Part shown: in pieces, positions 19,811-39,757 of the stretch
Numbering within the stretch: position 1 is the first letter of the stretch
How the letters are laid out: each line of letters begins with the position of its first letter
IMG/VR virus record: IMGVR_UViG_3300017951_000034
Span: 1-39,757 of that record
Length of the DNA: 39,757 nt
Source: a virus
Strand: one strand, 5' to 3'
Position numbers and translations under genes: made by a program
The notes under the pieces: generated by a model
Seen by the model: only the letters and a program-made list of their open reading frames with translations
Told to the model about the DNA's origin: nothing
Database searches by the model: none

Positions 19811-20143
19811 TTATGATATCTCTAATACTGAAACAATTACATCTGCCGAACTATTTACATTAGATGTTACTGTCATTGAATCATTTGCTTCCAAAACTAC
19901 TTTTTGGTCACCACCTACTAAAACAGCAGATGAACCATTTGGGATAACTGCACCTTTTACTAAATATTTAGTAACTCCAGCAGAGTTATCAGTTACTTGT
20001 ACATCTACATAAATATTTTGAGATACAATATTTGCCACATTTACACCAATCACGGTAGTTGATGTAGCAGCCGGAGTTGTATAAACATTTAATCCACCCG
20101 TTCCTGCAGGGCCTTTTATACTATTTTTAAATGTATTTGCCAT
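19811..20143 (-). CDS. Small beta-structured protein upstream of the 3171-aa fibre (adaptor candidate)
   Basis: This 110-residue protein is predicted to be almost all beta. It has an N-terminal strand with VYTTPAATSTTVIGVNVAN, a middle strand IYVDVQVTD, then GAVIPNGSSAVLVGGDQKVV and a C-terminal pair MTVTSNVNSSADVIVSVLE. It has no Cys, no signal peptide and no membrane segment. The 286-aa protein encoded just upstream of the other giant fibre has the same beginning and end with an insert in between, so both belong to one family. AGGA lies 7 nt before the ATG, inside the end of the previous gene. It ends 10 nt before the fibre start. Position suggests a fibre attachment, decoration or chaperone role, which is inference. 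The family is common among marine phage virion proteins to my memory. Confidence 0.75.
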   Translation of the reverse strand: MANTFKNSIKGPAGTGGLNVYTTPAATSTTVIGVNVANIVSQNIYVDVQVTDNSAGVTKYLVKGAVIPNGSSAVLVGGDQKVVLEANDSMTVTSNVNSSADVIVSVLEIS

Positions 20144-21916: not shown

Positions 21917-24900
21917 TCAACTTACATTATTCGCACTCAAGAATCCATAATATGTAATTCCACCATCATAAGTATAGAATACTAATATATCTTTTCCACT
22001 CGTTGTTAGTGTAGGTGCTGCACCATTTGCCCACTCTATATTTGCAGGCCATTGAACTGTTGCACCACTACCTCCATCTTCTAATAATAATGTAAATCCA
22101 ATTGCACGAGGACCATTTGGTGGATTTGAAATATTAAGTGTTGTAATATTTCCTGTTCTATTAATTCTGAAATTATTTGCAGTTTCTAAATTAATAGTCA
22201 CTGTTCCACTTGCATTTCCTATGTTGTTATAGTTTTCATGGAATCTTGTAGAGAATGTAGCATCACTTACATCTAAATCACCCGTTATATCTAATAAGTT
22301 ACCATCAAATGTTAAATTAGCCTCTGCAGTTGCAGTTCCATCACCATCTGCAGTAAGAACTCTATCTGCACCATCGGTTGCTATTTCTATTGCACCATCA
22401 ACACCAGATGAACCACTCGAACCACTTGTACCAGATGAACCTGCTGAACCATCCGTACCCGCACCAGAAGTACCACTACTTCCACTTGAGCCACTTGAAC
22501 CAGATGAACCAAATAGAGTACCATCTAAACCAGAAGTACCACTTGAACCACTTGAACCACTTGAACCACCTAAACCAGATGTACCCGATGAACCCGATGT
22601 GCCAGAAGTACCTGAAGAACCAAATAAAGTTCCATCCAATCCACTTGTACCAGAAGTACCCGAAGTACCAGCAGAGCCCGTTGAACCATCAGTACCATTA
22701 GCTCCACTTGTTCCACTACTTCCACTTGTTCCAGAAGTACCACTTGAACCAAATAAAGTTCCATCCAATCCACTTGTACCACTCGTACCACTTGAACCAG
22801 CAGAACCATCAGTACCAGCACCAGAAGTACCACTTGAACCAGATGTACCACTCGTACCACTTGAACCAAAGAATGTACCATCTACACCATCGGTTCCAGA
22901 TATACCACTTGTACCAGATGTACCAGCACTTCCACTTTCTCCACTCGTACCACTCGTGCCTGAAGTTCCACTTGTACCACTACTTCCAAATAAAGTACCA
23001 TCTAAACCAGAAGTTCCAGATGTTCCAGCCGTACCTGTTGTACCACCAGTACCCGATGTACCACTTGTACCAGATGTACCAGATGTACCCGAAGAACCAA
23101 AGAAAGTACCATCAGCACCACTCGTTCCACTTGTACCCGATGTACCACTTGTTCCACTTATACCACTTGTACCAGATGTACCACTTGAACCAATACCACT
23201 CGTACCACTCGTGCCCGAAGTTCCAGATGTTCCAAAGAAAGTACCATCAATACCACTCGTACCCGATGAACCAGATGAACCAGATGTTCCTGCACCAGAA
23301 GTACCCGAAGTTCCACTACTTCCGCTTGTACCACTTGAACCAAAGAATGTACCATCTAACCCAGAAGTACCCGAAGTTCCACTTGTGCCCGAAGTACCCG
23401 ATGTACCAGCACCACTTGTTCCACTCGTACCACTACTTCCACTACTTCCAAAGAAAGTACCATCTACACCACTTGTACCCGAAGTTCCTGCTGTACCAGA
23501 TACACCCGAAGTTCCACTAATTCCACTCGTTCCACTCGTACCACTTGAACCACTACTTCCAGCAAATGTACCATCTACACCGCTCGTACCCGATGTACCA
23601 TCAGAACCAATACCACTTGTACCCGAACTGCCACTCGAGCCCGATGTACCAGAACTTCCACTCGTTCCACTCGTTCCACTTGTACCACTACTTCCGAAGA
23701 AAGTACCATCTTGACCACTCGTACCAGAAGTTCCCGATGAACCACTTGCACCACTCGTACCACTTGAACCTGCAGCTCCATCAACACCAGATGTTCCACT
23801 TGAACCAGATGAACCAAAGAATGTACCATCTAAACCAGATGTTCCACTACTTCCACTCGTACCCGAAGTTCCACTCGAACCACCAGTTCCATCAGTTCCA
23901 CTTGAGCCAGATGTTCCTGATGTTCCTGAGCTACCACTTGTTCCTACTGAACCAGATGTTCCACTTGTTCCACTTGAGCCAGTAATACCACTTGTTCCAC
24001 TACTTCCACTTGAACCAGATGTTCCACTTGTTCCACTCGTACCACTACTTCCTTCTGCAGATGTACCACTTGAACCACTTGTTCCACTTGAGCCACTCGT
24101 ACCACTACTTCCACTTGAACCACTCGTGCCAGATGAACCACTACTTCCACTTGTTCCACTTGTACCACTTGAGCCAGATGAACCAGATGAACCTGCAGAA
24201 CCAGAAGTTCCTTGTGCACCAGATGTACCAGATGTACCACTACTTCCTTCGGCCGAAGTACCACTCGAACCTGCCGAACCACTACTTCCAGATGTACCGG
24301 ATGAACCAGATGTTCCGCTTGTTCCTGAGCTACCACTTATTCCACTCGTACCACTTGTACCACTACTTCCACTTGAGCCAGAAGTTCCACTACTTCCACT
24401 CGTACCACTTGTACCAGATGTACCCGAAGTTCCGGCAGTTCCACTTGTACCAGAAGTACCCGATGTGCCTGAAGTTCCACTTGTACCCGATGTTCCGTTC
24501 GTTCCACTCGTTCCACTTGTACCGCTTGTACCCGAAGTACCTGCTGAACCAGTTGTTCCACTACTTCCACTCGTACCAGATGTTCCACTCGTTCCACTTG
24601 TACCGGCTGAACCACTTGAACCTTGTGCACCCGAAGTACCACTTGTTCCACTCGTTCCTGCAGTACCCGTTGTTCCACTTGTTCCACTACTTCCACTTGA
24701 GCCACTCGTACCACTTGTACCACTCGTACCTGCAGAACCAGATGAACCAGTTTCACCATCTTGACCACTTGTACCACTTGAACCTGCAGAACCTGTTGAA
24801 CCAGAAGAACCACTTGAGCCAGAACTTCCAGAACTACCACTTGTACCACTTGAGCCACTGCTTCCACTCGAACCACTTGAACCAGATGAACCACTACTTC

Positions 24901-27900
24901 CACTTGAGCCAGATGAACCAGATGAACCATCCGAACCACTTGAGCCTGAACTGCCCGATGAACCACTTGAGCCAGATGAACCACTTGAGCCAGATGAACC
25001 AGATGAACCAGAAGTTCCACTTGCACCAGATGAACCAGATGAACCAGAAGTTCCACTTGTACCATGCTTGTCAACAATCTCAATAGTTCCAATCATTGAT
25101 GCATGGTTTACACATTGGTAAACTATACTATCCGGTGCATCTTCAGGTACTCTGTATTCAATTAATACTGATGTACTATGTTTTCCATTTGTTGGGTCAT
25201 TGTTTGTTGTACCAGGAACTGCTGTTGTACTTTCACTTGCCAATCTTAATGCAAATGGATGAGATGAACTCACACCACTAACATCAAAATAATAAAGTTC
25301 TCCCCTTACAACAGTTAGTGTTGGGAAGTTTCCAGCATATCCATCAAATGAATAATTAAATCCATCTTGATTTACTATATATAATCTACCACCTTCTCTA
25401 CCAGCAGTACCTGATGTTCCACTCGTTCCCGAAGTACCACTTGTACCAGAAGTTCCACTTGTACCACTTGTACCGGAAGTTCCGGCAGAACCAGTTGTAC
25501 CACTTGAACCACTACTTCCACTTGAACCACTTGAACCACTACTTCCACTCGAACCACTTGTTCCACTTGAGCCTGATGTACCAGATGTTCCACTTGTTCC
25601 ACTCGTTCCAGAAGTTCCAGCAGTTCCACTTGAGCCTGATGTTCCTGAAGTTCCACTTGTGCCCGAAGTACCACTCGTTCCACTCGTACCCGAAGTGCCC
25701 GATGTTCCTCCACTACCAGATGTTCCACTTGTTCCAGATGTACCGGATGTACCAGATGTACCAGATGTACCAGATGTACCTCCACTACCAGATGTTCCAC
25801 TTGTACCTGCAGAGCCAGTTGAACCACTTGTACCACTTGTACCAGATGAACCACTTGAGCCACGAGTTCCACTTGTACCACTTGTACCACTTACTGCAGT
25901 TACTGGTCTTGTTTCTATTCTATTTGTAGTTTCATTTAATACTAATACTGTATCTGATGTTCCTTCTTCTAATCCAAAGAATTCTACACTACCAGTTACA
26001 CCTAAACTACCAGTTATTTCTAATCTACCTTCAAATGATGCAGTTCCCGTATTTGGTAAGAAATTCTCTCCAACAAAATCACCAGCATTTAATGCAAATG
26101 ACGCGGTTGCTGCATAAGATGATGAAAGTACAGTCATCGATGCAGTTTGGTCATTTTTCACATAATCTTCAGCAGATACAGCATTTATAGCATAAGATGC
26201 AGATAATGCATATGATGCAGATAAAACTGTCATCGAAGCCGTTTGGTCTGTTCTTACAAATAATGAAGTGTCAAAATCACCGGCATTGATTGCAAATGAC
26301 GCAGTTTCGGCAAATGAGGCCGAAAGTACAGTCATCGATGCAGTTTGGTCATTTCTTACATAGTTATCTAAATTTGCAAGTTCTGCTAATGAAGCAGAAT
26401 CAAACCCTAATATGTTTGATGCAGTTGCAGCATTTTTTGCAAATTCTGCATATGATGCAGAAAGTACCGTTCCCACTACATCAGAACCTTGAACAAATCC
26501 AGATAATCTACCACCAGTACCAATTACTGCCTGACCACTTGTCAATCCACTAAATGTTACTCTGACTGATGAACTATTGATTGATTCTATTGCCTGTGGA
26601 ATAATCATTCCATTTGAACCAGTTTCATAAATCTGAACAACAGGATAATCTATTCCGAAATTATGTTGGAAAGTTACTTGAGTTACATCAGAGAATGGGA
26701 ATACTGCAGTATCACCAAATTGTGTTACAGGTCTAAACTTATTTGCATCAGCATCGAATACTAAAATATCTAAATCATCTGGTATATCAATTCCTTGATT
26801 TTCACCTTGATATGGTCCTACAAACGATGAAGTAATTCTTGGTGTAAATACTTCAGTTCTTGCAAATATTTTAGATGCACTAATATCATTTTTGAAATCA
26901 ACATTACCAAAGAATGTTGAACCACTCTCTATTGAAGTTACTACAAATCCATCATCAGGATTTGTTGATGCAGTTACCGAACCACTTAAAATTCTACTTT
27001 GGTCTAAACCTTCAATTGCATCAGCAGGAATATTAAATAATCCTTCACCACTACCACTAAAGAATCCACTACCCGATGGAATTGTTATATTACCTTCAAA
27101 TGTTGAACCACTAAATGGAGAGAATACTTTAAATCCACCAATTGGGTCAACTGATGCACTAATACCACCACTAATGATAAGAGGTAATGATAAATCTTCT
27201 AATGCCTCAGCAGGGATATTGAACAATCCACCACCATCACCAACGAATAATGTACCACTAATTTGATTGTTTACAACTAAACCATCATCAGGTGATACAA
27301 CTGCTTGAGTAGCACCAGAAATAATTCTATCTAATTGTAAATCTTCAAGTGCATCAAGAGGAATGTTATAAAGTCCACTACCATCACCACGATAGACTGA
27401 TGCCGAGATTGATTCTGAAATATAAACCGAACCACTAAATTCCGAAGTTACTGCCCCACCTACATTATCAAATACTCTGAAGAATCCATCTTCAGAAACT
27501 GATGCTGAAACTGAACCTGTGAATATTTTTGATGAATCAATTGCTAAATTTGCAATATCAATATTAGTAATACCACTACCATCACCAGTAATAATACCAC
27601 CGACATTCAGAGATTCGGATACATTAAGTGAACCACTTAAAGATGTAAGTACACTCGCAGTAACACCTTGGTCAAATACTTTAAATTCGTTATCTACTAA
27701 TGATGCGGTTGCAGACCCACTCTCTAATCTATCTAATTTAAGTGCTAAGTTTGCAATTGAAATATTTGTAATACCACTACCATCACCACTAATTACACCA
27801 TCATCAACACTAAATGAACCAGTAACATTAACCGAACCAGTAAATTGTGAACCACTCACTTTGGATGTTACAATAAATGTATCACCACTTTGAACCGATG

Positions 27901-30900
27901 CAGTAGCAGAACCACTCGCAATAAGAGGGGCAGCTGCAGCTTGTACATTTTGTAATTGTGAACCATCCCCAACAAAGAAATCTGCAATTACTGAACCAGT
28001 TACATCAACCGAACCAGTAAATCTTGAACCAATTGCAGAGCCAGTTGCAGCAGTTGTTACAATGAATGAATCTCCACTTTCAACAGATGCAGTTACTGAA
28101 CCACTTGATATTACTGGTGATAATTCTGCTTGAACATTTCTTAATTGAGAACCATCCCCTACAAATGAACCAGAGAATGAACCACTAAATTCATCTGCAA
28201 TTACTTTATTTGCATTTATAGTTTCGGTAACTGATAAACTACCTGTTATATCTACATCACCTTCAAAAATATTTCTTGTTATTTCAGGTATTGAATCAAA
28301 TACCTTTATTAATCCACCAAAGTCTACACTTTCTGATGAATAATAATATAAGTTATTAGGAGTACTTCCTGTTGGAATAAAACTTAAAAATGCATCAGTA
28401 TTTCCAGGAGAAACACTACTACTAACTACAAAATCTGTATATTCTACACCAGAATTGTGAGAACCACCATCAGTTGTAGAAAGTTTAAAAGTATTTGATG
28501 AATTACTACTATCCGATAAGTCAAAGTAATAAGAGTTACCCCTTACAACTAATATTGTTTTTTGATTTACACCATCTATTTGATATAATGTACTACCAGA
28601 TACAACCACAGAATGTGATACTGGAACACTTTCGTAAAATATAGATGCAGATACATTAAGTCCACCATCTATATCAGTATCACCTTGTATAGATGCCGAA
28701 GTGTTTACATTAAATCCAATTGATGGGTCTGTTGATGCTGTTACCGAGCCACTAGCAATAAATGTTCTTCTTTCAACATCTTCCGCAAGTGCTGATAGTG
28801 GGATATCAAATAAGTTTGCACCACTACCACTAAACGAACCACTAAATTCATTTGCAATTACAATAGTTGTGTCAATTCCTTCTGTTACATCTAAATTACC
28901 ACTTACAATTGTTTGTCCACTAATTCTATTTGGCACTTCATCTTCATAAAGTTTGTCAACTAATGAAATTGAGTTACCCATTGCAGTATGAATACTACAA
29001 TTATAGTAAAGTGTTACACTACTACCAGTTGGTGTGAATGTAAATGAACCATTATCAGTACCATTAAATCCAGAGAATTGAGAACCAGTTATTACATTTG
29101 ATAAATCTGTACCTGGTGCTGATTTTATATAGAATGGATGACCACTTGCATTTACATTAAATGTATAAGTTACATCTTTTACAAGAGTTAACTCTGGGTC
29201 ATTTCCTGTTGCACCACCTGTAAAAGTATAATCACTCGAGCCATTATTAGTGATATTAAATACTTTGTTTATAGAACCAGTTGGTACAATATCTTGTGAT
29301 GAAGAAACTATTAAACTACCACTAATAGTTACACTATCTTCAAATCTACCCGTTGAGTTTACTTGGAATCCAAAGTTAGGAGAAACTGATGCAGTTACTG
29401 AACCACTTGCAATTCTAAATGCTTCTTCAGTAATTGCCGAAAGTGGAATGTTAAATAGACCCGCACCACTACCACTAAATACCGATGCAGATAGTTCATT
29501 ATCAACAACTAAATTACCTTGAATAGACCCAGAAGTATTTACAACAAATCCTTCTTGTGGGTCAACCGATGCCGTTACAGAACCACTTGTAATTCTACTT
29601 ATTTCAAATGCAAGAGCAGATTCTGGTATATCGAATAAATCTCTACCACTACCACTAAATACCGAACCACTTTCTAATCGTACATCTCCAATAAAAAGTG
29701 AACCACTTGCTTCAGATGTTACCACAAATCCATCAACTGGACTAACTGATGCAGTTACCGATGCACTCGCAATTCTTGTGGCATCTTCTGACAGTGCAGA
29801 TTGTGGAATATTAAATAATTGAGAACCATCTCCAACAAAACCACTTGATGTAACAAATCCACTTGCAGTTACATTACCTTCAATTGTAGTTTCACCAAAT
29901 AATTTTTGTGTATCCGTATTTGAATCATCACCAAATACATTTGAGCCAGTAGATATTACAACAGATGATGATATAAAGTTTACAAAAATTTCTTCTGCAG
30001 TAATTCTACCACCAACAAATAAATCATTGTCAATATTCAAATCACCTTGAATTGAGCCCGAAGTGTTTACTATAAACCCTAAATTAGGTGAAATAGATGC
30101 TGTAGCAGAACCACTTGCTATTCTTGATGCATCTTCTGATAATGCAGATTGTGGAATGTTATTAAGTTGTGAACCATCTCCAGCAACTGAACCACTAAAT
30201 GAGCCTGTAAATTCATTTGCTGTTATTTTATCTGCAGTTATGTCATTTGTTACATTTACACTACCAGTAAATTCTGATTTTACCGAGCCAGTTGAAAATA
30301 CTTTAAATATACCATCAGTTGAAACCGATGCTGTTACAGAACCAGTTGTTATTAAATTTGAAAGAAGTGCATCTTCAACGAGTGCAGAACGAGGAATATT
30401 AAATAATCCTTCACCACTACCACTAAAGAATCCACTTTGACTTGGTATTTCAATATTTCCACTTACTATTACAGAACCACTAAATTCAGAAGTAACTGAG
30501 CCCGTTCCGAATACTCTAAAGAATCCACCCTCATCAATTGATGCAGTTACTGAACCTGTTGTGATTAAGTTTGATATTAATGCATCCTCAACGAGTGCAC
30601 TTCGTGGTATATTAAATAAGTTTTCACCACTACCACTAAAAGATGAACCACTAATTAGATTTACATTACCACTAACTAAAAGTGACCCACTTAATTCAGT
30701 TGTTACTGAACCTGTACCTTGTACTCTGAAGAAACCATCAGTTGTTACTGATGCAGTTACGGACCCAGTAGAAATTAAGTTTGAAATCAATGCATCATCT
30801 GTAAGAGCAGTTCTTGGTATATTAAATAATTGTTCACCACTACCACTAAATACCGAACCACTTGAAAGTTTTACATCTCCGAAAAATGTTGAACCACTAT

Positions 30901-32671
30901 CTACCGAAGTAACTACAAACCCATCAACAGGTGAAACAGAAGCAGTTACCGAACCACTTGCAATTTCCGTGGATAATAAAGCATCTTCAGTTAGTGCTGA
31001 ACGGGGGATATCGAAAAGGTCTCTACCACTACCACTAAATACCGAGCCAGATACTAATTTTACATCACCATCAAACAATGAACCACTATCAGTAGATATT
31101 ACAGTAAATTGATTATCTTCGGTTGATGCAGTTACCGAACCACTAGCAATAAATATTGCCTCTCTCGATACTAAAGCAGTAATTGATTCTTGAGCATCAG
31201 TTGAAAGTGCTGCAAATGGAATATCAAATAAATCTTTACCACTACCACTATATGCCGAACCACTATTAAGTTGTACAGCACCACTCACGAATACAGAACC
31301 ACTAAATTCAGAAGTTACTGAACCGGTAGACTGTACTCTAAAGAATCCATCTAACGAAACGGATGCTGTTACTGAACCAGTTGTGATTAGATTTGAAAGA
31401 AGTGCATCTTCTGTTAGAGCAGAACGAGGAATATTAAATAATTCTTCACCACTACCACTAAACACCGAACCAGATGATAATTTAACATCACCAAAGAAAG
31501 TAGAACCACTTGCTTCAGAAGTTACTATAAATCCATCCTGTGGGTCAACCGATGCAGTTACTGCACCACTAATAATTAAATTTGTTTCTAATGCGTCTTC
31601 AGTTAGTGCAGAACGAGGAATGTCAAATAAATTAGCACCACTACCACTAAAGGATGAACCACTATTTAATTGAAGATTCCCACTTACAAATACACTGCCG
31701 CTTAATTCAGTTGTTACTGAACCAGTAGAGAATACTCTAAAGAATCCATCTTGGGAAACTGAAGCCGTTACCGAGCCAGTTGTTATTAAATTTGAAAGTA
31801 ATGCATCATCTGTAAGTGCTGATTTTGGTATATTAAATAAATTTTCACCACTACCACTAAATGATGACCCACTATTAAGTTGTAAACCACCACTAACAAA
31901 TACACTTCCACTAAATTCAGAAGTTACCGAACCAGTACTAAATACTTTAAATACACCATCAGTTGAAACTGATGCAGTTACGGAACCAGTTGATATAAGA
32001 TTTGATACTAATGCATCTGGTGCAAGTGCAGAACGAGGAATATTAAATAAATCCTCACCACTACCACTAAAAGTTGAACCAGATGTGATTGATATTGAAC
32101 CAGTTACACCTACATCACCAATTACATCCAATGAACCAGTTACTTGAACCGAACCTGTAAATTCTTGAATATCACTTACATCACTACCGAATCTATTTGA
32201 GCCTGATGAAAATACGATAGATGATGATATAATATCAACAATAAGTTCTCGTGCAACAATACGATTATCAACAATTAAGTCACCCGTTACTCGAATATCC
32301 CCATTGACATCCATATCACCATCAAATGATGATGATACATTTACCAAAAATCCTGTGTTTGGGGCAATCGATGCGGATACTGAACCACTTCTTAATTGTT
32401 CTACATCTGGAAGATTATTTAATTCAGAGCCATCTCCTGCAAAAGAACCGCTGAATGAGCCGGTTACTTGGTCTAATTGAAGTGTTGTAACAAATAAACG
32501 ATTTCCATCCGCATCAGACGCTACAAGCGCGATGGAGCCAGATGAAATTGAACCACTCTCCGGAACTCCGAGGTTTGGTTCAGCTTCATTCAATCGTAGA
32601 TACTCATACCTATCCTCCGAAACATCGGATGGGCGTACTACCTTAACCTTTCCACTTAATAATTGGCTCAT
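21917..32671 (-). CDS. Giant tail fibre with cupredoxin-like domains and collagen-like arrays
   Basis: This 3584-residue protein begins with ~22 copies of a 50-85-residue repeat (FSGSG..LFNIPRSALTEDA, then TGSVTASVS) over ~1-1970. Cupredoxin-like domains interrupt them at ~1130-1243 (ligands His1178, Cys1225, His1228, Met1231) and ~1345-1460 (ligands lost). A beta sandwich (~1990-2060, VTFQHNFGIDYPVVQIYE) and NDQTASMTVLSAS repeats (~2064-2186) follow. Next come a glycine array (~2260-2427), a third cupredoxin-like domain (~2430-2535; His2471, Cys2520, His2523, Met2526) and a second array (~2535-3425) with twelve DGTFF/DGTLF breaks. The end is a ~160-residue beta domain with ANLTFDGNLLDITGDLDV. 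There is no S74 domain. It lies downstream of a 286-aa beta protein. The start has an AU-rich leader without Shine-Dalgarno. A fibre or adhesin role is inferred from architecture. Confidence 0.9.
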   Translation of the reverse strand: MSQLLSGKVKVVRPSDVSEDRYEYLRLNEAEPNLGVPESGSISSGSIALVASDADGNRLFVTTLQLDQVTGSFSGSFAGDGSELNNLPDVEQLRSGSVSASIAPNTGFLVNVSSSFDGDMDVNGDIRVTGDLIVDNRIVARELIVDIISSSIVFSSGSNRFGSDVSDIQEFTGSVQVTGSLDVIGDVGVTGSISITSGSTFSGSGEDLFNIPRSALAPDALVSNLISTGSVTASVSTDGVFKVFSTGSVTSEFSGSVFVSGGLQLNSGSSFSGSGENLFNIPKSALTDDALLSNLITTGSVTASVSQDGFFRVFSTGSVTTELSGSVFVSGNLQLNSGSSFSGSGANLFDIPRSALTEDALETNLIISGAVTASVDPQDGFIVTSEASGSTFFGDVKLSSGSVFSGSGEELFNIPRSALTEDALLSNLITTGSVTASVSLDGFFRVQSTGSVTSEFSGSVFVSGAVQLNSGSAYSGSGKDLFDIPFAALSTDAQESITALVSREAIFIASGSVTASTEDNQFTVISTDSGSLFDGDVKLVSGSVFSGSGRDLFDIPRSALTEDALLSTEIASGSVTASVSPVDGFVVTSVDSGSTFFGDVKLSSGSVFSGSGEQLFNIPRTALTDDALISNLISTGSVTASVTTDGFFRVQGTGSVTTELSGSLLVSGNVNLISGSSFSGSGENLFNIPRSALVEDALISNLITTGSVTASIDEGGFFRVFGTGSVTSEFSGSVIVSGNIEIPSQSGFFSGSGEGLFNIPRSALVEDALLSNLITTGSVTASVSTDGIFKVFSTGSVKSEFTGSVNVTNDITADKITANEFTGSFSGSVAGDGSQLNNIPQSALSEDASRIASGSATASISPNLGFIVNTSGSIQGDLNIDNDLFVGGRITAEEIFVNFISSSVVISTGSNVFGDDSNTDTQKLFGETTIEGNVTASGFVTSSGFVGDGSQLFNIPQSALSEDATRIASASVTASVSPVDGFVVTSEASGSLFIGDVRLESGSVFSGSGRDLFDIPESALAFEISRITSGSVTASVDPQEGFVVNTSGSIQGNLVVDNELSASVFSGSGAGLFNIPLSAITEEAFRIASGSVTASVSPNFGFQVNSTGRFEDSVTISGSLIVSSSQDIVPTGSINKVFNITNNGSSDYTFTGGATGNDPELTLVKDVTYTFNVNASGHPFYIKSAPGTDLSNVITGSQFSGFNGTDNGSFTFTPTGSSVTLYYNCSIHTAMGNSISLVDKLYEDEVPNRISGQTIVSGNLDVTEGIDTTIVIANEFSGSFSGSGANLFDIPLSALAEDVERRTFIASGSVTASTDPSIGFNVNTSASIQGDTDIDGGLNVSASIFYESVPVSHSVVVSGSTLYQIDGVNQKTILVVRGNSYYFDLSDSSNSSNTFKLSTTDGGSHNSGVEYTDFVVSSSVSPGNTDAFLSFIPTGSTPNNLYYYSSESVDFGGLIKVFDSIPEITRNIFEGDVDITGSLSVTETINANKVIADEFSGSFSGSFVGDGSQLRNVQAELSPVISSGSVTASVESGDSFIVTTAATGSAIGSRFTGSVDVTGSVIADFFVGDGSQLQNVQAAAAPLIASGSATASVQSGDTFIVTSKVSGSQFTGSVNVTGSFSVDDGVISGDGSGITNISIANLALKLDRLESGSATASLVDNEFKVFDQGVTASVLTSLSGSLNVSESLNVGGIITGDGSGITNIDIANLAIDSSKIFTGSVSASVSEDGFFRVFDNVGGAVTSEFSGSVYISESISASVYRGDGSGLYNIPLDALEDLQLDRIISGATQAVVSPDDGLVVNNQISGTLFVGDGGGLFNIPAEALEDLSLPLIISGGISASVDPIGGFKVFSPFSGSTFEGNITIPSGSGFFSGSGEGLFNIPADAIEGLDQSRILSGSVTASTNPDDGFVVTSIESGSTFFGNVDFKNDISASKIFARTEVFTPRITSSFVGPYQGENQGIDIPDDLDILVFDADANKFRPVTQFGDTAVFPFSDVTQVTFQHNFGIDYPVVQIYETGSNGMIIPQAIESINSSSVRVTFSGLTSGQAVIGTGGRLSGFVQGSDVVGTVLSASYAEFAKNAATASNILGFDSASLAELANLDNYVRNDQTASMTVLSASFAETASFAINAGDFDTSLFVRTDQTASMTVLSASYALSASYAINAVSAEDYVKNDQTASMTVLSSSYAATASFALNAGDFVGENFLPNTGTASFEGRLEITGSLGVTGSVEFFGLEEGTSDTVLVLNETTNRIETRPVTAVSGTSGTSGTRGSSGSSGTSGTSGSTGSAGTSGTSGSGGTSGTSGTSGTSGTSGTSGTSGSGGTSGTSGTSGTSGTSGTSGTSGTSGSSGTAGTSGTSGTSGTSGTSGSSGTSGSSGSSGSSGSSGSSGSSGTTGSAGTSGTSGTSGTSGTSGTSGTSGTSGTAGREGGRLYIVNQDGFNYSFDGYAGNFPTLTVVRGELYYFDVSGVSSSHPFALRLASESTTAVPGTTNNDPTNGKHSTSVLIEYRVPEDAPDSIVYQCVNHASMIGTIEIVDKHGTSGTSGSSGSSGASGTSGSSGSSGSSGSSGSSGSSGSSGSSGSDGSSGSSGSSGSSGSSGSSGSSGSSGSSGTSGSSGSSGSSGSSGSTGSAGSSGTSGQDGETGSSGSAGTSGTSGTSGSSGSSGTSGTTGTAGTSGTSGTSGAQGSSGSAGTSGTSGTSGTSGSSGTTGSAGTSGTSGTSGTSGTNGTSGTSGTSGTSGTSGTSGTAGTSGTSGTSGTSGSSGTSGSSGSSGTSGTSGISGSSGTSGTSGSSGTSGSSGSAGSSGTSAEGSSGTSGTSGAQGTSGSAGSSGSSGSSGTSGTSGSSGSSGTSGSSGSSGTSGSSGTSGSSGTSAEGSSGTSGTSGTSGSSGSSGTSGITGSSGTSGTSGSVGTSGSSGTSGTSGSSGTDGTGGSSGTSGTSGSSGTSGLDGTFFGSSGSSGTSGVDGAAGSSGTSGASGSSGTSGTSGQDGTFFGSSGTSGTSGTSGSSGTSGSSGSSGTSGIGSDGTSGTSGVDGTFAGSSGSSGTSGTSGISGTSGVSGTAGTSGTSGVDGTFFGSSGSSGTSGTSGAGTSGTSGTSGTSGTSGLDGTFFGSSGTSGSSGTSGTSGAGTSGSSGSSGTSGIDGTFFGTSGTSGTSGTSGIGSSGTSGTSGISGTSGTSGTSGTSGADGTFFGSSGTSGTSGTSGTSGTGGTTGTAGTSGTSGLDGTLFGSSGTSGTSGTSGTSGESGSAGTSGTSGISGTDGVDGTFFGSSGTSGTSGSSGTSGAGTDGSAGSSGTSGTSGLDGTLFGSSGTSGTSGSSGTSGANGTDGSTGSAGTSGTSGTSGLDGTLFGSSGTSGTSGSSGTSGLGGSSGSSGSSGTSGLDGTLFGSSGSSGSSGSSGTSGAGTDGSAGSSGTSGSSGSSGVDGAIEIATDGADRVLTADGDGTATAEANLTFDGNLLDITGDLDVSDATFSTRFHENYNNIGNASGTVTINLETANNFRINRTGNITTLNISNPPNGPRAIGFTLLLEDGGSGATVQWPANIEWANGAAPTLTTSGKDILVFYTYDGGITYYGFLSANNVS
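22395..25065 (-). repeat. Second Gly-X-Y array of the 3584-aa fibre
   Basis: About 890 residues of mainly GTS and GSS triplets. In the C-terminal half (coding 22505-23840) the triplet register is broken twelve times by DGTFF, DGTLF or DGTFA, about every 40 residues. Almost no Pro is present, unlike true collagen. Shadow frames rich in Pro-Val or Val-Gln on either strand follow from the repeat and are not genes. Confidence 0.93.
25068..25386 (-). other. Cupredoxin-like domain 3 within the 3584-aa fibre
   Basis: Residues ~2430-2535 start LYIVNQDGFNYSFDGY and contain LTVVRGELYYFDVS, SHPFALRL (His2471) and IVYQCVNHASMIGTIEIVD (Cys2520, His2523, Met2526). The order His...Cys-x2-His-x2-Met is that of a type 1 copper site with a short loop. 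Copper binding is inferred. Confidence 0.7.
25395..25890 (-). repeat. First Gly-X-Y array of the 3584-aa fibre
   Basis: About 165 residues of GTS/GSS triplets lie between the NDQTASM repeats and cupredoxin-like domain 3. It is separated from the larger array only by that domain, as if the domain had been inserted into one long array. Confidence 0.92.
26112..26480 (-). repeat. NDQTASMTVLSAS repeats in the 3584-aa fibre
   Basis: Three clear copies of a unit with N/T-D-Q-T-A-S-M-T-V-L-S-A/S-S-[FY]-A and an A-x-S-[FY]-A-[IL]-N-A tail lie 34-45 residues apart (~2064-2186). The last Gly/Asp-rich parts differ. The pattern is common in phage fibres just before collagen-like segments. Confidence 0.8.
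28290..28640 (-). other. Degenerate cupredoxin-like domain 2 in the 3584-aa fibre
   Basis: Residues ~1345-1460 keep the fold signature LVVRGNSYYFDLSD and the final LYYYSSESVDFGGLIKVFD. The His-Pro-Phe is replaced by Asn-Thr-Phe, and the Cys/His/Met loop by Ser and Asp residues, so no copper site remains. Confidence 0.55.
28945..29290 (-). other. Cupredoxin-like domain 1 in the 3584-aa fibre
   Basis: Residues ~1130-1243 contain LTLVKDVTYTFNVNASGHPF (His1178) and LYYNCSIHTAMGNSISLVD (Cys1225, His1228, Met1231), the same ligand order as domain 3. It sits between two N-terminal fibre repeats. Copper binding is inferred. Confidence 0.7.
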
Positions 32672-32697: not shown

Positions 32698-33558
32698 TTA
32701 TTCGTTTGCACTTTCAAGAATCGATAAAATCACGGTTAAATTCGTAGAACCTGATACAATTAGTGAAAAATCTTGTTCAAGTACCAATTTACCTGCTACA
32801 ATTGGTGATAATGAATCGCCTGCAGGAATTTCAACATTTGTGATTAAATCAACAGGTTCTTGTAAAACTCTTGTTGGATTTGAAAGTGTTTCTGAAATTG
32901 CATTTAATAAACCAATAGACGCACTTATTGAACCACTCTCTGCTACCAATGATGTATCTATTGATTGTGTTACACTATCTTGATACAATCGAGTTATACT
33001 TGCTGAACCTGTAACCGATTCATTTATAAGTATCTGTTGGGTCAATAAATTCGCATAATCTATACCTTCATATGATGCCGTAAAATAGTCATCTCTAATA
33101 GTGATTTCACCATTTTTATTGTAAAATGATAATGCTGCTTTTTTACTTTGCAATGTACCACCTTCAATTAAATCCGCCTCAACTCCATCTACGGCAGTTC
33201 TTACATATCCCTCAAAAAATGATGATGTAAAACTAAATGGTAATTGTTCCAAATTATTTTGAAAGTTGATATATGCAGCAGATTCCTTTTCAATAAAAGT
33301 TTGATTTTTTGCAATCAAAGCAGATGCACTTGTAAAACTACCACTATTAACAATTGAAGAAAGTTGAGGAACTGGAAGTTCCCTATTACTTGTCATCTTA
33401 ATTGTCACAGGTGTATTTGTAGTTCCCGTATTTGTAATCTGTGCTGATAAGACAATTGTAGAAACACCAGTTGGAGTTTTATATACAACATCATCATCAC
33501 CAGTTAAAGTGGTTAGTACCGACTTAAATGAGTTTAATGGAATTAATTCTTCTGCCAT
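32698..33558 (-). CDS. Small beta protein with an inserted copy of the giant protein's repeat (adaptor candidate for the 3584-aa fibre)
   Basis: In this 286-residue protein residues ~1-60 (DDDVVYKTPTGVSTIVLSAQ, then TPVTIKMTS) and ~237-286 (VEIPAGDSLSPIVAGKLVLE, then SGSTNLTVILSILE) match, in order, the first and second halves of the 110-aa beta protein at 19811-20143. The ~175 residues between them resemble the repeat of the upstream giant protein, with LIAKNQTFIEKESAAYINF, a later VDGVEADLIEGG and SYEGIDYANLLTQQIL. The Cys-x-Arg-Asp-x-Gly core of that repeat is missing here. The gene starts 12 nt after the giant protein's stop and ends 26 nt before the fibre start. Its leader is AU-rich without a Shine-Dalgarno. 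It is probably a virion protein; an adaptor or connector role is inferred. Confidence 0.75.
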   Translation of the reverse strand: MAEELIPLNSFKSVLTTLTGDDDVVYKTPTGVSTIVLSAQITNTGTTNTPVTIKMTSNRELPVPQLSSIVNSGSFTSASALIAKNQTFIEKESAAYINFQNNLEQLPFSFTSSFFEGYVRTAVDGVEADLIEGGTLQSKKAALSFYNKNGEITIRDDYFTASYEGIDYANLLTQQILINESVTGSASITRLYQDSVTQSIDTSLVAESGSISASIGLLNAISETLSNPTRVLQEPVDLITNVEIPAGDSLSPIVAGKLVLEQDFSLIVSGSTNLTVILSILESANE

Positions 33559-33570
33559 ATTTTTTTATTT

Positions 33571-36500
33571 TTAATCTTGTAGTGCCAATGAGAATGGAGT
33601 TACTAATGAGAATAGTGAACGAGAGAATGTTCTACCCTCTAAAGTACCTGAAGCCTGTTTAATAATCAGACCTGCACCAATTCTAAAGTCACCAAGTTCG
33701 TTACCAGAAGTAAAGAATACTCTACCTCCTGCTACTTCTACAACCTCTTTACTTGGGTCTGGTATACCATCACCACCTTGGTTAGGAGGTAATGCTTTAT
33801 AAGTTACACCCGAGCCTGCATAAGAGAAATCGTGTCCAGTAGTAATTATCAAAGAACCAAATTCTTCAACAGGTGCCTGTCTTGCAATGAATTGGAATTG
33901 TGTTCTTAAATATCTATTAGTTTCAGCCGTTTCTTTCTTTTGTTCATTTATAACCACAGCTGCACTTCCATATACACCATTGTAATATGATTGAGCTGCT
34001 CTGATACTTCTTTCGTTACCACCATAGATAATATCGGTTGCGATAGCATCTACAATGAAACCAGTATCTCTATAACATTTTTCTTCGTTATATTCAAAGT
34101 TAGGGAATGCCGCATTTGTATACGAAATAGCCTTACCTTGAAGAGTTTTCTTTGCATTTCTCAATGCATTTGCTCCATTTTTATTTAATAAGAATGGGAA
34201 AACTAATTGTTTTTGTGTTATCACCTTTTCTGCAAGTCCTTTAGAGAAATCAATACCATCAGTTGTTTGTGGTTTTTGCTCTGTTGTTGCAATTGAAGGG
34301 ATGTAGTAATAAAAAGTACCAGCCTGTACTGCTCGTTCGTTACCACCATACTTCAAATCAGTTGCAACTGCATCAATGATGTATCCTAAATCTCTACTAC
34401 AACTAACCTCATTATATTCAAACTCACTCCATGATGATGATAAATATGCAATTGTTTCTTTCTGAATAAATGTTGTGTTTCCTCTTAACAAGTCAATACC
34501 ATTTAAAATATCAACCGATGGTTGTGAATATTCTAAATTTTGAACAATATTTTGTGAAGTTCCATTTGCAAATCTAATTCCATCAACAGTTGGGTCTAAT
34601 TGATTTGCTTCAGATGGTGTACCTCCTTGAGTTGCTCTTGATGGATATCGCCAATAATACAACCCAGCAGTTACACTTCTTTCATTTCCACCATAAAGAA
34701 GGTCAGTTACTGCAGCATCAACAATATATCCCGTATCTCTTCTACATTTATCTTCATTATAAGTTACATTACTCCAAGAAGATGAGATAAATTCAATAGT
34801 TTCGTTTTGAATAAAACTTCTATTATTTCTTAATAATTCAACAGCACCACTTACTTCAGCTGAAGCAGTGACAAAAATTGTATTTTCCATTACTTTTTGT
34901 GCCAATGAACTTGCATAATTAATACCATCAATAGTTTGATTTAATTGACCATTCGTATTATTTTGGAAATTAACTGTTGCGTTTGATGGGTATAAGTAAT
35001 AGTATTCACCATTTACTCTACTTCTCTCATTACCACCATATAAGAAGTCAGTTGCTACACCATTTAAGATGTAACCAGTATCTCTCTTACATTTATCTTC
35101 ATTGTAATCAAATGTACTCCACGAAGAAGAAATATATGCAATTACTTCATTTTGAATAAATTCTTTGTTATCTAAAATTACTTTGTTACCAGCTAATCTT
35201 TCAGCAGATGCAGTTACGAATATTTCGTTTTGTACTAATTTACTTGCAACATCACCGGCGTACTTAATACCAGTTGTAGTTGGTTCTAATTGAGTTGATG
35301 TTGCAGATGAAGGATATTTGTAGTAGAACTCACCTGCAATCTTACTTCTTTGGTTACCACCATAAAGAAGGTCAGTTGCAACGGCGTCTACAATATGTCC
35401 TACATCTCTTCTACAAGTTGCTTCTACATATTCAAATCCTTCCCAAGATGAACTTAAATAAGAAATAGATTCTGATTGAATAAACTCTCTGTTGTTTCTA
35501 ATTAATTCAACCGATGCAGAAAGTTGAGTAGATGGGTTAGTAAATGTTACACCTTTTACAATTTGTTCGGTCAATTGGTATGCATAATTAATACCATCAA
35601 TTGTTTGCTGTGATTGTGAAGAAGTTGCTTCAGATGGGAATTCATAATAGTATTTAGCATTTACTACCGATGCAGAAACTACACCATAAAGTAAATCACT
35701 TGCTACACCATTTACAATATACCCAACATCCCTAGCACATTTGACATCATCATAATCAAATCCTACCCAAGAAGATGAGATATATTCTACAACTTCAGTT
35801 TGTATAAATGGAACACTTGCAGTAATCAATGCATGTGCAGTTACGATATCTGAATCTGTTAAGGCAGGGCCATATAGTGAAGCAGTCGGTGTTGAACCTG
35901 TTCCATTTGCGATTGCATCTGATACGATTGCAAATGAAGATGAAATTGTATTAAGAATACTAATATCAGTTACACTACCACCAGTTGCAGGTGATAGATT
36001 TGTTACTTTAATTGCATTATCAGTATTCAAACTTCCAGTTGGAACAAATAAAGTTTCCTTATCTATTATTTTTTCAATTAAATCTTTAGCATATATTAAT
36101 GCATCAGTAGTTTCATCTAATTGATTATTAGTTGCTTCAGATGGGAATCTATAATAGAATTCACCAGCAGTTAATGCTCTTTGGTTTCCACCCCATCTTA
36201 AATCAGTTGCAACAGCATCTACAATAAACCCAGTATCTCTACTACAACTTGCCTCGTTGTATTCAAAATTTGGATATTTAGCATTTACAAATGCAATAGT
36301 TTCATTTTGAATAAATTCTCTATTTTCTCTAATCGAGTTATAAACATACTTAACTTCATTTGATGAAGTTACAAATATTGCACCACTCACTATTTCAGTT
36401 GCAATTCCTTGTACAAAATCAATAGCAGTTACGGTTGGGTCTTTTTGTCTTGTCGCAGAAGGAACACCACCTACAATTGCAGCAGATGGGTAATCATAAT

Positions 36501-39500
36501 AGAATCTACCAGCAACTACACTTCTTTCATTTCCACCATAAAGAAGGTCAGTTGCAACTGCATCTAAAATATATCCAACATCTCTCTTACAAGTTACAGA
36601 GTTGTAATCAAAATTATCCCAAGAAGATGAAATAAATGCAATTGTTTCTTCTTGAATAAATTCTTTATTGTTTCTAATTAATTCAACCGAACCAGAAATA
36701 AGAACAGATGCAGTTTGATAAGTATACCCTCTTACTATATTCTCTGCCATTCTACCAGCATACTTGATACCATCCAATGTTTGCTGTAATTGAGAACCAG
36801 TAGCTTCAGAAGGATATTCATAGTAGAACTTACCATTTACTACTGATGCAGAATTTGCATTATGTAGCATATCTTCTGCTGCACCTGAAATAATATATCC
36901 AATATCTCTTGCACATTTGTCTTGGTTATAGTCAAATGTTGACCAAGAAGAACTTAAATAAGCAATTGATTCACTTTGAATAAATCCTATATTATCTTTT
37001 AATAAGTTATATGCAGCTAATGTCTTTGGAGATTCGGATGGTGTATCATATTCAACAATAGTTGGCAACGAACCAGTCCCATTTTCTAAAATTGTAGTTA
37101 CAACCGAAATTGAAGATGATATTAATCTTTGTTGTAATCTATCACCAAAGCTTTCAGATGTAATTTGTGAAACATCAGTTACTTTTATTAAATTATCAAC
37201 ATCAGAGTTGTTATATGTAATAGTTGGTAATACACTCAATCCGTTTTGAACAACATTTTCAACAATACCAACACTACTATTTACTTTAGAAACCTCAACA
37301 GATGAACCACTAATAGAAGAAACAAATTGTGTTTCATTCGTTACTTTAATATGATTGGATGTATTTGTTTCTAATGTTGGCAATGAACCAGTACCATTTT
37401 CAATGATATTAATAATTTGACCAAATGAAGAACTTACAATACCAAATTCAGTATCAGTTGTATAAGTACCACTAGCTGTTACATAAGAACCAGTAGTTAA
37501 GTTTTGAGGTACATCTAATGTATCATCATACCACTTTGCTAATGCAAATGGAATGTCATCAGTTCCTAATCTGATAATATCATTAATAAATCCTACACTT
37601 CGAGTTACATATGCAGATTCAATATCACTACCACTATTTGCAGATGTGAATTGTGTTGTATCGGTAATCTTAACTAATCCCTCAATATTTTCAGTTAACA
37701 CAGGTAATGTACTTACTGAATCTCTTTGGGTTCTAACAAATGTATGAGCTGATTGAGGTAAATGTTTCAATGCTCCATTTGATGCAGACACAAATGTGTG
37801 TACTGATTGAGGTTCGTGTTTAACTGCATTATTTGATGCAGATACAAATGTATGTAAAGAACCAGAAGCACTACCAGCATTACCTACATTAATTGTAAAT
37901 GTACCATCTTGTCTTTCTAATCCATCAGAAGTTGCAGATACGAATGTATGTGCTCCCACATATGGAGATGAACCGATATTGATATCAAATGTGTTTGTAG
38001 TTACATTTGAAATCTCTAACCATCTTCCACTTGGATAATCATAATTAGGTCTTGGGTAAGATTTGGTAGTTGTATTACCATCTAACACACAAGTATAAGT
38101 TAGAGAGTTATCATCTAATTTGATGTAATCTCCATTTGAGAATCCGTGATTTGAAATTGTGATTGTAACATCACCAGTTGATGCATCATAAGGTGCATCG
38201 GTTACAGTATGTGATGTTGTACCAACTGAAGTGATAACAATTGATTTTCCAGCATATGGGTCTGAACCTGGTCTTGGATAAGAATGAGTTGTTGCATCAC
38301 CATCTTGGTCACAAGTAAATGCGAATGATTCATCTTCCAATACTACACTTCTACAAACTCCTAAACCAAATGATTCAGTAACAGTCAATGTCATATCTCC
38401 ACTTAAAGCATTGTATGAAGCAGATACAGGTGTAAAGTATTTATTAGGACCTGATGCTCCTACATTAAATGTCATTGTAGTATCAGTTACAGCCGTTAGA
38501 GGAATTGAGCGAACTGCTTTAGGGTCGATACCTACTCTTGGATAAGATTTAACCGATTGGTTATCATCCATATCACAAGTAAATGCAAATGATTCAGCTT
38601 CCATAACGATACCCTCACCAACACTTAAACTATGACTTGCAACAGTTACTACAAAATCACCAGTTGCTGGGTCATAAGATGCAGTTGTTGGGTTGAACTC
38701 TACATTTGGACCCGATTTACCAACATTTACAGTTATAGTATTATCAGTTTTAGATTTAATTGTCAATCTATTATCGTAAGCAGGTTGTCCAACTGAAGGT
38801 AAGTTATGCTCCGTTCTATTACCATCCATTTCACAAGTGAAAGTGAATGATTCAGGTTGTAAGTAAATACTATCACCAACACTCAATCCATGTTTAGAAA
38901 TTGTCATTACAAAATCACCATCTGCCGGATTGTAAGTTGCAGTTGTTGGTGTAAATGATTCAATTCCAGTTTTTATAATTCCAGTTACAATATCAACCGA
39001 TTTACTAACTTCAGTTTGATATGAACCACTTAATGCAATTGAAGATAAAGTAGGTTCAAATGAAGTTACTTTAATATTTCCATCAGTATTTGAAACTATT
39101 GATGGGGATTCTATTGAATTATTTATAATAATATTTTTTAAGAAACTTTCAGCATATCTAATACCAGCAATAGTTTCACCTATCTGTACAGTTGTTGCTT
39201 CAGATGGATATAAATAATAGAATTCTCCACTCTTAACACTTCGTTGGTTACCACCCCATAATAAATCAGTGGCAATACCATCTAATATATGACCAACATC
39301 CCTTCTACATTTTTCTCTATTGTATGTAAAGAAAGGATATCTAAAATCAATATATTCAGTTGTTTCATTTTGAATAAGAGTTCTATTATTTCTAATTAAA
39401 TTCCATATCTCTAATTTGTCAGATGAAGGTTGTTGTAGTACCACATTTTGAATAAGTTTTTGAACTACATTTGCAGCATGTACAATACCATCAATAGTTT

Positions 39501-39757
39501 CAATTTTTTGTCCATCGGTTGCATCAGATGGATATCTCCAATAGTATTCACCGGCAATTACACTTCGTTCATTACCACCATATCTCAAGTCAGTTGCAAC
39601 AGCATCTAAAATGTGTCCAACATCTCTATGACATTTGTCTTGATTGTATTCAAATCCAACCCAAGAAGATGAAATGTAAGAAATTACTTCATCTTGTACT
39701 AACTCTCTGTTTCTTTCAATAATTTGATAAACACCTTCTATTTCAGATGATGCAGTA
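33571..39757 (-). CDS. Giant repeat-containing virion structural protein (partial, N-terminus beyond right edge)
   Basis: The frame is open through the right edge, giving at least 2061 residues; the TTG at 39588 is an internal Leu of a repeat, not a start. Eleven copies of a 107-115-residue repeat are visible. Each has NREFIQNETIAFISSSW, then Cys-x-Arg-Asp-x-Gly-[HYF]-I, D-A-V-A-T-D-L-x-Y-G-G-N-x-R-S, an F-Y-Y-x-Y-P-S strand and DGIxYAxxL. Between copies 2 and 3 lies an ~800-residue insert with four FTCDMDGN...SYPRPG beta units and four HTFVSA units. The C-terminal ~130 residues (FGSLIITTGHDFSYAGSG, then GGRVFFTSGNELGDFRIGAG) form a separate beta domain that I associate with large structural proteins of marine T4-like phages. 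A tail or fibre structural role is likely; the exact one is unknown. Confidence 0.85.
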   Translation of the reverse strand, partial: TASSEIEGVYQIIERNRELVQDEVISYISSSWVGFEYNQDKCHRDVGHILDAVATDLRYGGNERSVIAGEYYWRYPSDATDGQKIETIDGIVHAANVVQKLIQNVVLQQPSSDKLEIWNLIRNNRTLIQNETTEYIDFRYPFFTYNREKCRRDVGHILDGIATDLLWGGNQRSVKSGEFYYLYPSEATTVQIGETIAGIRYAESFLKNIIINNSIESPSIVSNTDGNIKVTSFEPTLSSIALSGSYQTEVSKSVDIVTGIIKTGIESFTPTTATYNPADGDFVMTISKHGLSVGDSIYLQPESFTFTCEMDGNRTEHNLPSVGQPAYDNRLTIKSKTDNTITVNVGKSGPNVEFNPTTASYDPATGDFVVTVASHSLSVGEGIVMEAESFAFTCDMDDNQSVKSYPRVGIDPKAVRSIPLTAVTDTTMTFNVGASGPNKYFTPVSASYNALSGDMTLTVTESFGLGVCRSVVLEDESFAFTCDQDGDATTHSYPRPGSDPYAGKSIVITSVGTTSHTVTDAPYDASTGDVTITISNHGFSNGDYIKLDDNSLTYTCVLDGNTTTKSYPRPNYDYPSGRWLEISNVTTNTFDINIGSSPYVGAHTFVSATSDGLERQDGTFTINVGNAGSASGSLHTFVSASNNAVKHEPQSVHTFVSASNGALKHLPQSAHTFVRTQRDSVSTLPVLTENIEGLVKITDTTQFTSANSGSDIESAYVTRSVGFINDIIRLGTDDIPFALAKWYDDTLDVPQNLTTGSYVTASGTYTTDTEFGIVSSSFGQIINIIENGTGSLPTLETNTSNHIKVTNETQFVSSISGSSVEVSKVNSSVGIVENVVQNGLSVLPTITYNNSDVDNLIKVTDVSQITSESFGDRLQQRLISSSISVVTTILENGTGSLPTIVEYDTPSESPKTLAAYNLLKDNIGFIQSESIAYLSSSWSTFDYNQDKCARDIGYIISGAAEDMLHNANSASVVNGKFYYEYPSEATGSQLQQTLDGIKYAGRMAENIVRGYTYQTASVLISGSVELIRNNKEFIQEETIAFISSSWDNFDYNSVTCKRDVGYILDAVATDLLYGGNERSVVAGRFYYDYPSAAIVGGVPSATRQKDPTVTAIDFVQGIATEIVSGAIFVTSSNEVKYVYNSIRENREFIQNETIAFVNAKYPNFEYNEASCSRDTGFIVDAVATDLRWGGNQRALTAGEFYYRFPSEATNNQLDETTDALIYAKDLIEKIIDKETLFVPTGSLNTDNAIKVTNLSPATGGSVTDISILNTISSSFAIVSDAIANGTGSTPTASLYGPALTDSDIVTAHALITASVPFIQTEVVEYISSSWVGFDYDDVKCARDVGYIVNGVASDLLYGVVSASVVNAKYYYEFPSEATSSQSQQTIDGINYAYQLTEQIVKGVTFTNPSTQLSASVELIRNNREFIQSESISYLSSSWEGFEYVEATCRRDVGHIVDAVATDLLYGGNQRSKIAGEFYYKYPSSATSTQLEPTTTGIKYAGDVASKLVQNEIFVTASAERLAGNKVILDNKEFIQNEVIAYISSSWSTFDYNEDKCKRDTGYILNGVATDFLYGGNERSRVNGEYYYLYPSNATVNFQNNTNGQLNQTIDGINYASSLAQKVMENTIFVTASAEVSGAVELLRNNRSFIQNETIEFISSSWSNVTYNEDKCRRDTGYIVDAAVTDLLYGGNERSVTAGLYYWRYPSRATQGGTPSEANQLDPTVDGIRFANGTSQNIVQNLEYSQPSVDILNGIDLLRGNTTFIQKETIAYLSSSWSEFEYNEVSCSRDLGYIIDAVATDLKYGGNERAVQAGTFYYYIPSIATTEQKPQTTDGIDFSKGLAEKVITQKQLVFPFLLNKNGANALRNAKKTLQGKAISYTNAAFPNFEYNEEKCYRDTGFIVDAIATDIIYGGNERSIRAAQSYYNGVYGSAAVVINEQKKETAETNRYLRTQFQFIARQAPVEEFGSLIITTGHDFSYAGSGVTYKALPPNQGGDGIPDPSKEVVEVAGGRVFFTSGNELGDFRIGAGLIIKQASGTLEGRTFSRSLFSLVTPFSLALQD
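33980..36985 (-). repeat. Nine Cys-x-Arg-Asp-x-Gly repeats of the giant protein
   Basis: The repeat cores fall near 36910, 36590, 36245, 35740, 35412, 35090, 34745, 34400 and 34080. Steps are mostly 320-346 nt (107-115 residues), with one step of about 506 nt where extra sequence is present. Each core has exactly one Cys. Two further copies lie at 39240-39757, beyond the beta insert. Confidence 0.88.
37725..37970 (-). repeat. Four HTFVSA units in the giant protein
   Basis: His-Thr-Phe-Val-[SR]-[AT] recurs four times: three copies lie about 18 residues apart, and one lies after a longer spacer. The intervening text is [ST]-x-x-[AG]-[VLA]-[KE]-[HR]. This is a short beta-repeat motif I recall from marine phage structural proteins. 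Confidence 0.8.
37975..38965 (-). repeat. Four FTC.MDGN...SYPRPG beta units in the giant protein
   Basis: Each ~80-95-residue unit has [YF]-[ND]-[PA]-x-[TS]-G-D-[FMV]-x-[VMI]-T-[IV], then F-T-C-[DE]-x-D-[GD]-[ND], then [SN]-[YL]-P-[RS]-[PV]-G-like and T-x-[NT]-V-G-x-S-G-P-N. Every unit keeps one Cys in the F-T-C or Y-T-C position. Confidence 0.85.
39240..39757 (-). repeat. Two upstream Cys-x-Arg-Asp-x-Gly repeats, at the right edge
   Basis: The cores at about 39310 (CRRDVGHILDGIATDLLWGG) and 39635 (CHRDVGHILDAVATDLRYGG) show that the repeat array continues to and probably past the window edge. Confidence 0.85.

Follow-up and report, generated by a model that had tools for sequence, protein, structure and literature searches.

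Ig-like and other promiscuous domains insert into phage virion proteins, and in phage fibres such modular insertions often present modules that touch the host. Domains and subunits of the phycobiliprotein type, which are of relevance to the locus described here, pack against each other in stacks. Cyanobacteria harvest light with phycobiliproteins, which are pigment proteins. Like some related bilin-binding globins (BBAGs), phycobiliproteins attach bilin at the motif C-x-R-D (PMC10151467). Phages of hosts without phycobilisomes carry hemO together with pcyA/X, and why they do so is an acknowledged open question (PMC11480375). The cyanophage S-SCSM1, the virion proteome of which was measured (PMC9602691), encodes an orthologue of the protein discussed below, which is annotated as “virion protein”.

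The DNA analyzed here, referred to as the window, is a 39,757-nucleotide fragment of an uncultivated virus (IMG/VR record IMGVR_UViG_3300017951_000034). Genes for the tail sheath, the tail tube, the baseplate hub and a tail fibre assembly protein are found near the gene of interest, i.e., the virus is a T4-like myovirus. This gene, a real open reading frame encoding 286 aa, is located between the genes of two giant proteins on the same strand (Table 1). The upstream giant harbors 11 C-x-R-D-x-G motifs (10 within the translated 2005 aa) and has the conserved C-terminus ...SRSLFSLVTPFSLALQD. The 286-aa gene directly follows this C-terminus, as do the genes of the family to which it belongs, the products of which are referred to as slot proteins. 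Elsewhere in the window, a Peptidase_S74 (endosialidase chaperone) domain is found at the C-terminus of a 3171-aa giant (10288-10677, minus strand, E 4.5e-11). Numerous antisense open reading frames of up to 467 aa are seen at 22378-31673 (plus strand) and in frames antisense to 10285-19800; these probably result from the repetitiveness of the GTSG/GSSG coding sequence rather than being genes.

Table 1. Features of the window, and loci in which the slot protein is expanded by “YPR” modules.
Feature	Position	Strand	Basis
Slot protein, 286 aa: beta-sandwich with inserted helical (globin-like) module	32698..33558	-	Open reading frame, profile matches, AlphaFold model
Sandwich, N-terminal half, residues 1-58	33385..33558	-	Two-piece profile match; model strands 10-57
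Insert, residues 59-235, absent in uninserted orthologues	32854..33384	-	Cyanophage slot-protein alignment; split at intact-profile position ~56
Repeat-unit portion of insert, residues 74-183, homologous to the giant's C-x-R-D repeats	33010..33339	-	hhalign, unit HMM
Site of lost C-x-R-D-x-G core, residues 115-120 = F-E-G-Y-V-R	33199..33216	-	Unit alignment; 0 Cys in 17/17 distinct inserts
Sandwich, C-terminal half, residues 236-286	32701..32853	-	Profile matches; model strands 236-284
Upstream giant tail protein, runs past window end	33571..39756	-	PHROG tail-fibre families
Beta “YPR” modules of upstream giant; type inserted at other loop in P-SSM2 lineage	37954..38976	-	HMM
Intact 110-aa paralogue of the beta-sandwich, same phage	19811..20143	-	BLASTP, profile
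Downstream giant, 3584 aa, GTSG/GSSG (collagen-like) stretches	21917..32671	-	Conserved neighbour in inserted loci compared
“YPR”-expanded slot-protein loci: L135, L145, L165, L170, L175, L177, L179, L182, L184, L185, L195, L198, L203, L204, L209, L211, L215, L221			

An earlier note, made from the DNA sequence, had suggested that the two ends of the 286-aa protein align with the two halves of an intact 110-aa homologue, a claim that is borne out by profile searches in both directions. A profile of the 286-aa family matches intact proteins of 110-116 aa in two collinear segments, with residues 9-58 aligned to 5-55 and 236-282 to 61-110, and a profile of 70 intact slot proteins matches the 286-aa relatives in two pieces, each with an E-value of about 1e-10 to 1e-15, the match being interrupted at profile position ~56. 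In pairwise comparison with the paralogue of the same phage, residues 9-58 are recognized by BLASTP (E 7e-4), and the C-terminal part, which is too diverged, gives no match. Another 110-aa open reading frame, P0003 (20148-20480), was considered as the intact homologue and rejected, as no relation was found. Both halves of a ~110-aa domain (family phrog_1276-like) are present in the 286-aa protein, in order, which confirms that residues 1-58 and 236-286 are the two halves of one beta-sandwich.

Predicted structures agree with this architecture. An AlphaFold run with an alignment of close relatives only gave a model with a pLDDT of 41 that yet displayed beta ends and a helical middle, the latter at low confidence; with this model, Foldseek identified 110-aa phage proteins over 287 columns (probability 1.00). 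In a second run, 39 units of the giants were added to the alignment over the insert only; two MAFFT alignments that mixed intact and inserted proteins were misaligned and kept out of folding. The resulting model (pLDDT 82.8, pTM 0.72) displays strands at 10-57 and 236-284, a ribbon formed by 60-63 and 229-232, and helices at 76-177 and 210-226. The confidence of the sandwich also increased, with its own alignment nearly unchanged. Among viral models, Foldseek aligned the protein over its whole length, bridging the insert, with intact 110-aa proteins (TM 0.84, and 0.81 for the virion protein of S-SCSM1), and matched the insert to tail giants of cyanophages over ~160 columns. The protein is thus predicted to form one beta-sandwich from both ends, with a helical domain carried on a short two-stranded stalk (60-63, 229-232). 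The earlier note had anticipated such a fold, with a helical module emerging from a loop of a single beta structure; independent end domains unlike the 110-aa protein did not appear.

The same inserted protein was found in 42 loci in IMG/VR (56-100% identical, 285-288 aa), all of which harbor the insert, at constant length. In the loci compared for gene order, it is flanked by a C-x-R-D-repeat giant ending in ...RTFSRSLFSLVTPFSLAL and a MSQLLSGKV giant. A tblastn search with the 286-aa protein gave no match in any named phage. The C-terminus of the giant, on the other hand, is present in 103 cyanophage and marine records, and in eight named cyanophages (S-B05, S-SCSM1, Sf-CH8, SynMITS9220M01, S-SRM01, S-CAM9, S-CAM7 and B23) the next gene encodes an uninserted slot protein of 109-117 aa, which is the empty site. 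In T4-like myoviruses of marine and fresh waters, the slot protein is a small beta-sandwich encoded after a giant tail protein, and its place is presumably in the virion. A 112-aa virion protein encoded after a short tail fibre in S-CREM2 (gp127) was rejected as proteomic support because profiles showed that it is not a slot protein.

The 133 complete slot proteins include 72 uninserted and 61 expanded ones. A tree of the C-terminal domain of the giant (about 101 columns, those of the slot protein being excluded) places the proteins with a helical insert in one clade (99%), on a long branch, and those with a beta insert in another (100%), with the uninserted ones around them, such that the insert states require the minimum number of changes. 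The helical insertion is thereby shown to have a single origin in the lineage of the window. Sequence, synteny with uninserted orthologues and structure prediction together strongly support the domain-into-domain insertion put forward in the earlier note.

The slot protein was invaded a second time, independently, at the other loop by beta modules. In P-SSM2 (PSSM2_022, 330 aa) and 17 other loci (220-753 aa), including the single-cell-derived marine virus AG-345-L05, about 1 to 7 beta modules, a number that shifts quickly between close relatives, expand it at the last hairpin (intact-profile position 86-97). An HMM of the “YPR” modules of the window giant matches these inserts (full E 1e-4 to 3e-99) and leaves the helical inserts unmatched. 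The inserted modules were not found in the stretch covered of the adjacent upstream giant of the P-SSM2 lineage. P-SSM2 retains an uninserted copy of the slot protein elsewhere in its genome. In the 134-aa slot protein of another locus (L217), profile positions 91 and 95 are ~20 residues apart; this small extension of the last hairpin is perhaps an early stage or a remnant of an insertion at that site.

The middle ~175 residues of the 286-aa protein had been likened to the repeat of the neighbouring giant, which holds for ~110 of the ~177 residues of the insert (59-235); about 50 form a faster-evolving tail. The middle matches the upstream giant in BLASTP (E 2e-7), and hhalign relates the inserts to 38 giant units over residues ~74-183 (98.4%, E 4e-15). 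A giant-unit HMM scores the insert at 31.7 bits, compared to a maximum of 10.7 among about 5000 shuffles, and matches all 42 inserted proteins of the lineage (E 1e-5 to 6e-10). A unit profile built without inserts recovered the insert frames when genomes were searched in six frames (E 2e-15 to 8e-13). Judged by sequence similarity, the insert is a member of the repeat family of the neighbouring giant, in which up to 20 copies are found within this lineage. The inserted copy has indeed lost the Cys-x-Arg-Asp-x-Gly core, as the note had stated: Cys is absent from all 17 distinct inserts that were detected as copies of the unit, whereas C-x-R-D is present in 243 of 251 distinct giant units. The insert unit was shown to be under purifying selection, with dN/dS of 0.03-0.17, similar to that of the sandwich halves in all pairs but the deepest. 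The tail (184-235) is less constrained (0.09-0.43) and finds no clear counterpart in the giant; its assignment as a second giant module was rejected as not supported. Near the end of the giant in locus L185, units are found with C-x-D-D in place of C-x-R-D and with a stretch, YYNGN, that resembles FYNKNG of the insert, which makes them a candidate for a closer source type.

The predicted helical module resembles a globin fold closest to that of the phycobiliproteins, which the homologous repeats may share. With the predicted insert model, Foldseek identified phycoerythrins, phycocyanins and allophycocyanins in the PDB (probability mostly 0.97-1.00, TM to target about 0.5-0.65, E about 2e-3 to 0.1); matches to complement C3 were set aside because of low probability. 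With the unit profile, 28 of 31 PDB matches were phycobiliproteins (best E 0.013). A PDB match to Tako8 was regarded as an artefact of the profile and set aside. Among Pfam families, Phycobilisome (PF00502) is matched most often by the units (best E 0.0011), and weak matches to it occur in five phage records, all within giant-length frames. The giant of Synechococcus phage Sf-FP1 exceeds the curated cut-off of PF00502 as a whole (29.9 vs 22.2 bits), with no single stretch passing alone; the giants of the window and its lineage do not reach it. Comparison of giant units with phycocyanin alpha using hhalign gave 84.6% (E 7e-6; region C-x-R-D-x-G...G-G), compared with 0.1-0.5% for controls, and all 20 of the phycocyanin sequences score above all 2739 scored shuffles. 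By sequence, only ~24 columns surrounding the motif match; in both giant units and phycobiliproteins this motif is found in a helix ending at G-G. For the insert itself, sequence comparison with phycocyanin gives no match (hhalign 0.8%), which is what a similarity recognizable in the motif region alone would predict.

From the above discussion a model may be formulated, to which we assign a probability slightly better than even. One complete helical domain of the giant's repeat family entered the loop between the sandwich halves, once and long ago, and lost its bilin-attachment core, with the sandwich predicted to fold still from both ends and the domain to protrude on the stalk. The sandwich, located in the virion, may act in the tail fibre as a small adaptor or cap, and the inserted copy may dock this cap, as a chromophore-less subunit, onto the giant's array of homologous domains, because phycobiliprotein-type domains pack on one another in stacks. 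A chromophore-less docking domain is, by this reasoning, the most likely role of the insert. A counter-point is offered by the P-SSM2 lineage, where the modules are unrelated beta modules at another loop; docking to globin repeats is therefore not a general reason for inserts in this protein.

The alternatives differ widely in probability. That the ends are independent domains unlike the 110-aa protein, separated by an unrelated helical filler, would be compatible with the uncertain middle of the low-depth first model, but it is refuted by the profile matches in both directions, the second model, the Foldseek searches and the alignment of insert to unit, and deserves hardly any credence. The source of the insert is a more evenly balanced matter. 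The note had named the neighbouring gene as the donor, of which the shared repeat family stands and the donation itself is plausible, not proven. We see nearly an even chance that the insert came from another giant with the same repeat family, or from the array before its amplification and homogenisation: in a tree of the units, the inserts group as a single clade (99%) apart from today's array, on the opposite side from the units of the window-lineage giants, features of the YYN.N type are common to the insert and divergent units of other phages, and the inserted modules of the P-SSM2 lineage are likewise absent from the stretch covered of its upstream giant. However, the split from the array has a support of 25% and tandem arrays homogenise, such that an origin in the neighbour remains compatible with the tree, and the adjacent gene holds such units in every locus of the lineage examined (3-20 in the portion covered).

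The similarity between the repeats and phycobiliproteins could also be convergence, i.e., a C-x-R-D-x-G helix motif in a generic helical bundle, as would fit the ~24 matching columns, the modest best E-value in the PDB and the window giant's lack of a Pfam Phycobilisome match. We regard convergence as unlikely because the PDB and Pfam matches of the units point so consistently to phycobiliproteins, the Sf-FP1 giant passes the cut-off as a whole, every phycocyanin outscores every shuffle, and Foldseek independently ranks phycobiliproteins near 1.0, with the motif helix ending at G-G in both. The main competitor of the docking role is an outward-facing, host-binding (adhesin) module, for which docking to the giant is not needed. 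The tail-fibre neighbourhood speaks for such a function, as does the gain of beta modules by the same protein in copy numbers that vary among close relatives, which is typical of surface-exposed modules. The insert of the window's lineage is, however, constant in length and under strong purifying selection, unlike fast-evolving receptor-binding tips, and a host-binding function consequently appears somewhat improbable. Docking onto the giant is the reading that we retain.

The presence of bilin genes in related phages adds a further aspect. A 270-kb contig of the window's lineage (L042; L310, G010:C1:195500-199500) encodes, in overlapping genes on the minus strand, a ferredoxin-dependent bilin reductase (1647-2288, 213 aa, PF05996 E 4.5e-23) and a heme oxygenase (2276-2788, 170 aa, PF01126 E 2e-12); psbA was not found in this contig. 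A search for pmoC as a host clue gave no match, the control being equally silent. In Sf-FP1 (L311, PV340854.1, 2470-17754), genes for a CpeT-like protein, a 2OG-oxygenase and a bilin reductase are found upstream of a 4323-aa virion protein, with the bilin reductase gene ending 37 bp before this giant, which harbors five phycobiliprotein-like units and four C-x-R-D. In Pelagibacter phage Mosig (MT647606.1, 39650-41473), a SAR11 phage, genes for heme oxygenase and bilin reductase are found beside neck and tail genes, and no C-x-R-D unit was detected with the unit profile. There is no simple co-occurrence of C-x-R-D units and bilin reductase across phages: with this profile, P-SSM2, S-PRM1, AG-345-L05 and Mosig display the enzyme and no unit, and in Sf-CH8, S-CAM7, B23, S-SKS1 and ACG-2014f units were found and no enzyme. 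In the literature searched, no publication connecting tail fibres with phycobiliproteins was found. A bolder idea, which we consider a long shot, is that the giant tail proteins are biliproteins, in which tandem phycobiliprotein-type domains would carry bilins made by the phage heme oxygenase and bilin reductase (PcyA/PcyX), possibly attached with the aid of phage CpeT, and the chromophore-less copy in the 286-aa protein would dock to this pigmented array. If true, biliprotein tails would give the phage bilin genes a use, even where hosts lack phycobilisomes, and pigment binding by a tail protein would answer the question about hemO and pcyA/X in a direct way that can be tested.

The architectural reading of the locus is right and the donor is unproven, and the repeat itself raises the more interesting question, i.e., phycobiliprotein-like source repeats with a bilin-attachment motif in giants of phages, some of which encode bilin-making enzymes. 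The locus also offers a polarised case of domain insertion, where the empty site, the filled site and the source repeat family are all known, and one small protein was invaded twice. Two invasions, at different loops and by different modules, make rules of phage structural-protein evolution testable.

The closest counterpart of the 286-aa protein, S-SCSM1_27 (112 aa, family near phrog_1276), has the same beta-sandwich in the same slot after the C-terminus of the giant and lacks the 177-aa insert. PSSM2_022 and its relatives are the same slot protein, likewise split by a module type found in the giant tail proteins of this group, but differ in the loop used, in the beta “YPR” nature of the modules and in forming a separate clade. 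The C-x-R-D repeats of giant tail proteins (phrog_5342, phrog_701 and others) are homologous to the insert; they form tandem arrays with C-x-R-D, whereas the insert is a lone copy from which the core has been lost. With phycobiliproteins and BBAGs the insert shares a predicted globin-like fold, and the giant units carry C-x-R-D at the matching helix; unlike these proteins, the units reside in giant virion proteins and the insert is devoid of Cys. The kind of event is already known, i.e., modular insertion in phage virion proteins, of which this case is a variant: promiscuous modules enter virion proteins here as with Ig-like domains, but at this locus the recipient protein, the empty site and the source family of the module are all identified, and two loops were used independently.
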